Made by a program: the position numbers and the translations under genes. Of a DNA stretch of 33,916 bases, positions 911 to 28,947 are shown piece after piece. The DNA comes from an uncultured Desulfobacteraceae bacterium (GTDB lineage: Bacteria; Desulfobacterota; Desulfobacteria; Desulfobacterales; Desulfobacteraceae), in NCBI GenBank assembly GCA_913041495.1, contig CAJWHT010000039.1:1-33916 (forward strand), given 5' to 3'. The notes beneath the pieces are model-generated. The model saw nothing but the letters and a program-made list of their open reading frames with translations. It was not told where the DNA came from and made no database searches. Within the stretch, counting starts at the first letter, position 1; every line of letters starts with the position of its first letter.

Positions 911-1024
911 CAAATAACGGCCATGGGCCGCCCAGTTTCTGCCCTATGGGTATGAACGTCAATCGGCGTGCCCACAACACACAATGAAAGAAACCAGAAG
1001 CTTATGTGGTTCTTTCATATAAAA
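911..1024 (+). repeat. Two-copy intergenic element, copy A (leader of the OYE-family gene)
   Basis: This copy shares three identical blocks with the minus strand at 28408-28503: AACGGCCATGGGCCGCCCA (916-934), CGTGCCCACAACA (967-979) and GGTTCTTTCATATAAAA (1008-1024). The last 58 nt align without gaps, and ATGAAAG (984-990) is also conserved, forming an inverted repeat with CTTTCAT. In this copy the arms extend to ATGAAAGAAaCC and GGTTCTTTCAT around a 12-nt loop. The first block folds on itself (ATGGG-ccg-CCCA), and its TGGGC could alternatively pair with the GCCCA of the second block. The element ends directly before the AAGGAG site of the gene at 1036. It could be a structured leader RNA or a binding site for a dispersed regulator. 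Confidence 0.7.
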
Positions 1025-28186: not shown

Positions 28187-28497
28187 TTCCTCTCCTTTGC
28201 CGGACGACGCCACGATAATTGACTTTGGATGTTTATTTTTCGGACATCCTATCCTAAAATCATCTCCAAATCAAAACGTTTATTTGTATGCGATCGCACA
28301 AAAAGGAACGGCTTTTAAGCAGCACTTATCCCAATAAAGCCAAGGGCCGGGTTCCCCCGGAGCATCATATTCACAGCCCAATTCTGAGCCGCTTTATGCT
28401 TCCTAAATTTTATATGAAAGAACCAAGCAAACTATTATATCCTTTCATATTTTGTTGTGGGCACGGCCAATGACACTCATGGGCGGCCCATGGCCGT
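28187..28497. other. 311-bp intergenic region containing repeat element copy B
   Basis: No gene is seen. The TIGR04076-like stop codon touches the element at its far edge. Also present are GGATGT/ACATCC (28227-28232 and 28244-28249, a perfect 6-bp hairpin) and a short GC-rich hairpin-like stretch near 28343-28362. Promoter assignment for the chemoreceptor gene is not secure. Confidence 0.55.
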
Positions 28498-28503
28498 TTA
28501 TTG
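28408..28503 (-). repeat. Two-copy intergenic element, copy B
   Basis: On the minus strand the order is AACGGCCATGGGCCGCCCA (28498-28480), CGTGCCCACAACA (28465-28453), ATGAAAG (28448-28442) and GGTTCTTTCATATAAAA (28424-28408). Spacing from the second block onward is identical to copy A at 967-1024. Here the first half folds more completely than in A: CGGCC and GGCCG enclose ATGGG-ccg-CCCAT. The inverted repeat ATATGAAAG/CTTTCATAT is also longer at its base. The element begins across the stop codon of the TIGR04076-like gene and points toward the chemoreceptor gene. Confidence 0.7.
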
Positions 28504-28947
28504 GCCTGATTCAATTATGCGGGCTTCTACCACCACCCGCCCCCATCCGCCGCAGTCCAGTCCGACATCATCACAATGTCCCACGGCATAAAGGGGAAGC
28601 GGCTCTATCCCTTCCCAGACGCGTTCTTGTATCAGCCACATGATCCGGGTCATCGGAGGCATCAGAAATGGACAGAGGTGACCGGAGCTGTCCTTGAGAT
28701 TCATGGCACCCGCCCCCGGAAAAACATAAGTATCCCCGGGTTTGTGTCCCACCACACACCCCTTTGCCATCTTCACTTCAAAGCTGACGGAAAGTCCACT
28801 GAGCGCTTCTAGCTTGCCGAGAATTTTACCTGTTCGGGGCTGGGCAATATATTCAGCCATTTCTTCGTCGGTAAATCCGGTCAGTGCCTGAATACCTGTC
28901 AAAAGTTCACTTTTCTTCCGATCCCCGTGTCCACGTTGCCCGGTCAT
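28498..28947 (-). CDS. TIGR04076-like small conserved protein
   Basis: Predicted 149-aa protein. After an N-terminal helical extension of about 50 residues with an acidic TDEEMAEYI stretch, it has KMAKGCVVGHKPGDTYVFPG and, near the end, YAVGHCDDVGLDCGGWGRVVVEARII. The spaced Cys, GH and CDD elements resemble the TIGR04076 family of uncharacterised proteins. No enzyme motif is clear. AAGGAG precedes the ATG. It is divergent from the GlxA-type regulator at 29128, which may control it. Function unknown. Confidence 0.6.
   Translation of the reverse strand: MTGQRGHGDRKKSELLTGIQALTGFTDEEMAEYIAQPRTGKILGKLEALSGLSVSFEVKMAKGCVVGHKPGDTYVFPGAGAMNLKDSSGHLCPFLMPPMTRIMWLIQERVWEGIEPLPLYAVGHCDDVGLDCGGWGRVVVEARIIESGQ

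Follow-up and report, generated by a model that had tools for sequence, protein, structure and literature searches.

The cited part of a study of REPs describes them as small dispersed intergenic hairpins 20-40 bp long, each with a single palindrome and tagged by GTAG or CGTC, which also occur in tandem groups, and reports that GTAG REPs often give neighbouring ORFs a stop codon (PMC3733652). IS200/IS605 elements are characterized, in the relevant section of PMC6006769, by a subterminal hairpin at each end, a short left target and no target duplication. The bcr1-type repeats of the Bacillus cereus group are presented in the section cited as dispersed sequences of 100-400 bp with an AT-rich TTTAT motif, with an average of 39 bcr1 copies per strain (PMC6542083), and the enterobacterial RU repeats, in the corresponding passage, as ~100 bp, intergenic, gene-less and mobile in trans (PMC2759123). 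For the Desulfobacteraceae themselves, the pertinent portion of a genome paper mentions many mobile elements and counts only transposase and integrase genes (PMC11887813). No published description of the element reported here was found among open-licence papers, a scope outside which most subscription journals lie.

In behaviour, the element comes closest to REPs, IS200/IS605 derivatives and bcr1 repeats, and it fails tested defining features of both REPs and IS200/IS605 derivatives. As far as the cited passages go, it resembles REPs (GTAG/CGTC) and their RAYT (TnpA-REP) systems in being small, dispersed, intergenic, hairpin-forming and gene-less. Unlike REPs as described there, it is ~90 nt long with two hairpins and a fixed (A)ATAA target, its shared parts contain no GTAG or CGTC tag, and it flanks no RAYT gene at the loci examined. 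With IS200/IS605 derivatives, on the description cited, it shares a covarying hairpin near each end, a fixed short left target and the lack of a duplication beyond 2 nt. However, no TnpA/Y1 gene lies between element ends among the 30 + 19 Y1 loci, the replication-strand bias is unconvincing, and guide tetranucleotides are not obvious. Non-autonomous derivatives of IS200/IS605 go by the name PATE-type. The likeness to bcr1 is by description only, within the section cited: the other strand of the element opens with TTTAT, before TTATT, whereas bcr1 comes from a different phylum and no whole-motif duplication is demonstrable here. Like MITEs and RU (ERIC-like) repeats, as the latter appear in the passage cited, the element is ~100 bp, intergenic, gene-less and putatively mobile in trans; unlike them, it has no target duplication longer than 2 nt, and its ends are not inverted repeats of each other.

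The window, i.e. the whole 33,916-nt stretch of DNA that was analysed, comes from an uncultured Desulfobacteraceae bacterium. The original prediction had placed two copies of an intergenic element in it, and copies A and B are both present where it located them (Table 1). They have in common the 19-mer AACGGCCATGGGCCGCCCA (916-934, plus strand; 28480-28498, minus strand), and their 58-nt core (967-1024, plus strand, versus 28408-28465, minus strand) is identical at 45 of 58 positions, the same as the earlier hand count. Copy A spans 108 nt over the full unit and copy B 90 nt; once 18 nt are removed from A, the two are identical at 72 of 90 positions. The linker between the 19-mer and the core had been given as 32 versus 14 nt; this length difference holds, and it reflects a discrete 18-nt block in copy A rather than free drift. 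As described earlier, copy A fills the leader of an FMN oxidoreductase gene up to the Shine-Dalgarno site: it ends at 1023 with AGGAG immediately next, 12 bases 5' of the ATG. Copy B begins one base past the TAA of a 149-aa ORF, which had no Pfam or NCBIfam match. Gene duplication had been ruled out before, and we agree; chance similarity of A and B is also excluded because the element has at least 90 places in the own genome and matches in all 18 other genus genomes searched.

Table 1 Positions in the window of the two element copies, their target motifs and their parts
Feature	Position	Strand	Basis or remark
AATAA target motif, left of copy A	913..917	+	sequence; motif from flank consensus and empty sites
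Copy A, form with 18-nt block in right arm of hairpin 1	918..1023	+	ends set by identical G018 copies
Hairpin 1 of copy A (TGGGC...GCCCA)	924..974	+	fold, covariation
Optional 18-nt block inside hairpin 1, copy A	934..951	+	25-copy alignment
Hairpin 2 of copy A (ATGAAAG...CTTTCAT)	984..1018	+	fold, covariation
Right end ATAAA of copy A; AGGAG of next gene adjoins	1019..1023	+	sequence, flank analysis, identical G018 copies
AATAA target motif of copy B	28498..28502	-	TAA 28500-28498 is the stop of the 149-aa ORF 28498-28947
Copy B, form without 18-nt block	28409..28496	-	sequence, alignment, covariance model
Hairpin 1 of copy B	28458..28490	-	alignment and family structure; single-sequence fold of B differs here
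Hairpin 2 of copy B	28414..28448	-	fold, family structure

The unit of ~90 nt has a constant order: C-NNN-CA, hairpin 1 (TG...CA), CAACRAANN, hairpin 2 (ATGAAAG...CTTTCAT) and ATAAA. Including the AAC start, its length was 88-97 nt in the genus relatives inspected, with a single exception of 69 nt. Among 25 own-genome copies, the 18-nt block of hairpin 1 occurred in the right arm in seven and, in near reverse-complement form, in the left arm in four; one copy had it in both arms and 13 had it in neither, a distribution that looks as if hairpin-1 arms had been copied or inverted inside the palindrome. Outside the genus the tip of hairpin 2 is variable, with tandem repeats in some lineages. By eye, these are ~7-nt head-to-tail units (e.g., ACACTTA/ACACCTG or GTTAGCT) in L096, L170 (Desulfonema magnum), L156, L162 and others (Desulfotignum), and the hairpin 2 loop seems to grow in small tandem steps.

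The two stems are kept through compensatory change across relatives, which bears out the earlier suggestion of a selected folded element. The covariation alignment comprised 107 matches drawn from 90 loci out of the 132 in L061-L192; it was fitted to the model structure and leans towards it. In it, standard pairs made up 92.0% of pair cells, compared with 78.8% after shuffling and at most 60.7% with slid partners. Two-sided changes numbered 241 pair cells against 83.8 in the shuffles and no more than 50 in the slid controls. A motif-anchored count made without the fitted alignment gave 0.91 paired versus 0.45 shuffled for pair 8 of hairpin 2, and 0.85 versus 0.49 for pair 4 of hairpin 1; it should be noted that the copy finder demands paired arms, so that the outermost pairs of this count are selected and the inner ones mildly favoured. 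Only slight covariation was seen within the own genome alone, at 2 of 20 pairs. Between hairpin 1 and the leader NNN, a mini-hairpin that covaried by eye in a few relatives did not rise above the shuffles.

The claim that the element exists in two copies was wrong, as it belongs to a high-copy family. Used as a nucleotide query against the own genome, copy A returned at least 47 matches (best 40 of 106 candidates scored). The covariance model R1, built from 25 full own-genome copies, gave at least 90 matches there at E ≤ 0.01 (best 150 of 3612 candidates scored), a number that is not a count of whole copies because some matches are cut at contig ends (C38:1-86, C164:7-75, C72:4-51). Contigs C38, C72, C164, C177, C239, C245 and C268 of the window's assembly (G000) start within element copies, and the repeat therefore seems to break the assembly. 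The covariance-model search of the own genome and related Desulfobacteraceae, which the original prediction had proposed, thus returned many further copies. At an E value of 0.001, matches were present in 23 of 40 genomes including the own one: in all 19 genomes of the genus (own included), of which the other 18 carry from 1 to at least 109 each, in four of the six other members of the family, and in none of the 15 genomes from other families of the order.

An exact pattern scan of a GTDB-based contig collection found at least 104 stretches. Titles among the pattern matches listed named Desulfonema magnum, Desulfotignum, Desulfamplus and Desulfobacter, as well as Desulfobacteraceae, Desulfobulbaceae, Desulfococcaceae, Desulfobacterales and unspecified Deltaproteobacteria. 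Of 247 genomes sampled from the phylum, own included, at least 10 matched at E 0.0001 under strict filters, with the best 18 candidates per genome scored. The exact pattern had no match in viral contigs, and copy B had none in plasmids or phages.

The element is almost certainly mobile. In one relative (G018), which has 88 element matches, an identical 85-nt core was present at 19 places in the 30 loci searched (20 rows represent 19 places because one place sits in two loci). Flank similarity between these identical copies stops at ATAAC on the left side, replaced by AGAAC in one case, and at AAA on the right side. The own genome had no identical pair among 32 copies of 83 nt, with nearest neighbours separated by 1-16 differences, and activity there therefore looks older. 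We searched the joined flanks of nine G018 copies in the sister genomes G017 and G010, and four of the nine places were empty in a sister species. At L368 the site was empty in G017, where 300 bp aligned without interruption at 99% identity, and also in G010; L369 was empty in G010, with other inserted DNA at the G017 counterpart; L370 was empty in G017, as was L371 with a rougher alignment. The other five places (L372, L373, L376, L377, L378) had no readable empty site. Comparisons of 400 kb of G018, G017 and G010 added three empty/filled sites, namely a G018 copy whose site is empty in G010, a G010 copy whose site is empty in G018, and a site that is empty in G018 and holds different copies in G010 and G017. 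With its 19 identical places and the empty sites of its sisters, G018 offers a clean system for studying the movement of very small gene-less elements.

The flanks define where the element inserts. The consensus has AATAA in the left flank and ATAA(A) at the right end. A left tetramer other than ATAA was repeated on the right in 0 of 17 cases in the own genome and in 1 of 72 at other loci, the latter set coming partly from a pattern that fixes the right end and the former not. Since the right tetramer is independent of the left, the left motif is the target and the right motif is the element's own. The element thus lies in fixed orientation, 3' of a pre-existing (A)ATAA. Any target duplication is at most 2 nt, and an AA duplication of 2 nt looks the same as none; a longer duplication was rejected from the tetramer comparison and the empty sites. 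Classical MITE features were absent, with ends (C-NNN-CA and ATAAA) that are not mutual inverted repeats and no target duplication seen beyond 2 nt. Tandem copies are head-to-tail and have one ATAA in common; in G004, all 23 neighbouring pairs lying 85-95 bases apart were on the same strand. The original prediction had named a decayed mobile element, with target-site duplications and random placement, as the outcome that would overturn it. Mobile behaviour is what we observed, whereas duplications longer than 2 nt and random placement were not, the element sitting 3' of (A)ATAA.

Taken as a whole, these repeats are probably high-copy miniature non-autonomous mobile elements that move by single-strand, HUH-like transposition in trans at (A)ATAA. 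Such a mode fits because of the fixed orientation, the one-sided target, the selected hairpins at the ends, the missing duplication and the tiny size. Lack of a duplication also speaks against a DDE transposase. One strand would be excised or copied and would fold into the two hairpins, and an enzyme provided in trans would then join the folded strand 3' of (A)ATAA. The excised form is predicted to carry the joint CATATAAA-CNNNCA on one strand only. This logic would be that of HUH (Y1-type) single-strand transposition of IS200/IS605 relatives, with a different anatomy and a putative enzyme. Since a TAA stop codon frequently serves as the target, many copies come to lie right behind a gene without disrupting it. 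If correct, this reading would explain an abundant repeat of sulfate-reducing bacteria.

We place the full statement no higher than probable because no mobilising enzyme was found, the Y1 and Y2 genes examined being unbracketed by element ends and few in the own genome, and because the strand test is weak or flat. Element copies were present at 1 of 30 Y1 loci (L209). Of 19 further Y1 loci, none gave an R2 match to the element at E 0.01, and none showed a RAYT gene flanked by the repeat. For Y2/IS91 the figure was 1 of 30 loci (L429, whose own Y2 match is marginal), and intact IS91 loci lacked the element ends, which sets the repeat apart from an IS91 derivative. None of the loci examined (30 + 19 Y1, 30 Y2) had element ends bracketing a Y1 or Y2 gene, and both Y1/RAYT and IS91 genes were rejected as carriers of the ends since these fail to bracket them. 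Single-motif matches at enzyme loci (e.g., the lead motif in L406) were taken as chance. Against at least 90 element matches, the own genome contains a single partial Y1 gene and a single Y2 gene. Across 17 genus genomes (incomplete G001 and G012 left out), R1 counts correlated with Y1 counts (rho 0.50, p 0.04), whereas the correlation with Y2 counts did not reach significance (rho 0.40, p 0.12); both correlations are weak evidence because R1 was built on the window's copies and the counts are lower bounds. Two copies in G018 (L346:12085-13628) have between them a Fic-like gene together with a 117-aa frame similar to an IS91 transposase N-terminus, and this short IS91-like fragment may be a point for an HUH enzyme.

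With 11 copies close to the terminus omitted, the split between replication strands was 30 versus 47 in G018 (Fisher p 0.04, binomial p 0.07); it was 48 versus 50 of 118 sites in G004 (summed from bins; 20 near the origin or terminus omitted). By inspection, the bases before hairpin 1 (NNNCA) and hairpin 2 (CRAANN) are unlike, though both cleavage sites are ATAA-like. The search for an autonomous version with separated ends covered 30 Y1 loci, pattern loci totalling 0.73 Mb, and 1.2 Mb from three genomes. In two places (L255, L166) an orphan left half had an orphan right half behind it on the same strand within 4 kb; the right half in L255 is probably coding sequence and that in L166 probably the end of a neighbouring copy, and both candidates were set aside.

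The original prediction favoured a leader RNA, a small RNA family or a dispersed regulator site. In its present form, this would be a dispersed structured RNA, in the leader or at the 3' end, co-transcribed with the preceding or following gene and acting as a hairpin on mRNA stability or translation, with mobility only its means of spread. We consider it quite improbable. The strong covariation with its G-U pairs and the way copy A occupies a leader as far as the Shine-Dalgarno site are in its favour, as is the ORF on the same strand that precedes 29 of 39 own-genome copies; however, such an ORF precedes only 55 of 111 copies in other loci, and the sites turn over quickly between sister species. 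Comparison with Rfam 15, suggested earlier as a check, gave no match at the gathering score in the window, and elsewhere only sub-threshold ones with chance-level E values. The original prediction also expected recurrence upstream of redox genes. A raw tally does include a 4Fe-4S protein, aldehyde dehydrogenase, glycerol-3-phosphate dehydrogenase, rubrerythrin and the window's FMN oxidoreductase, but the functions are mixed overall. Among the downstream proteins in the own genome, 17 of the 19 scanned (23 listed) had Pfam matches and two had none, and the range covered a betaine transporter, MoeA, sigma-70, TrkH, GGDEF, an ABC transporter, a response regulator, an aminotransferase and TGT. We therefore rejected a leader RNA or regulon as the principal reading: sites turn over, one relative has 19 identical places, and the downstream genes are mixed. 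On the mobile-element reading, copy A lies in a leader as a side effect of its insertion, though it may still act in cis on the gene behind it. The case cautions against taking a leader for a riboregulator on the grounds that it is RNA-like and covaries strongly, since it can be an insertion.

Placement behind stop codons was assessed with a simple greedy ORF caller, which supplied both the context and the background counts. The copy finder gave 43 copies (one twice) in 70 own-genome loci, and the 28 loci yielding none are absent from the flank, context and background counts. Copies started directly after an in-frame stop in 13 of 39 cases in the own genome and 17 of 111 elsewhere, the stop being TAA in all, and lay inside an ORF in 3 of 43 and 16 of 141, respectively. 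In the background of the own loci, ORF stops accounted for 5.8% of intergenic-or-stop TAA, 7.7% of ATAA and 8.3% of AATAA, giving an exploratory p < 1e-5 for the stop placement, with occupied stops absent from the background. This TAA-stop excess may reflect targeting or retention.

Two other routes of movement would account for parts of the same evidence. The element could be the product of a site-specific recombinase, either bcr1-like or of the serine/tyrosine type, with an AA crossover dinucleotide and exchange at AATAA. The fixed target and orientation, the joint with at most 2 bases in common and the head-to-tail tandem copies agree with this, but hairpins kept at both ends are unexpected for a double-strand recombinase and ~88 bp is too short for an ordinary double-stranded circle, so that we judge it improbable. 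It is very improbable that the element is a retroposed small RNA, in which an RNA copy would be reverse transcribed from a nick after AATAA. The RNA-like fold, the 0-2 extra A at the right junction of the three 400-kb empty/filled pairs (read by eye) and the runs of 3 to 9 A behind the identical G018 cores point that way; against it, the clean sites L368 and L369 require no extra A, and the flanks are A-rich in any case. A more general reading is doubtful, yet less so: a gene-less class of ~88-nt, two-hairpin elements of sulfate reducers, moved by an enzyme that is neither Y1/RAYT nor IS91, perhaps via RNA or ssDNA, with one amplified subfamily per lineage behind genes. Under this reading, frequent landing in stop codons would follow from the element's seeking of AATAA.

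Two further repeats were noticed during the analysis. A second dispersed repeat of ~150 nt (L084:294-440; flanks of L376, L377 and L385) has many copies in G002, G010, G017 and G018, and copies of the hairpin element lie beside or inside it at several places in G018. A third repeat of ~84 nt carries the right end TTTCATATAAA behind a TGAAAG...TTTCA hairpin and has a different interior (L200:2284-2367; L248, 5773-5859, minus strand; L362:8500-8576); judged from its sequence, it is possibly a cousin with one shared end.
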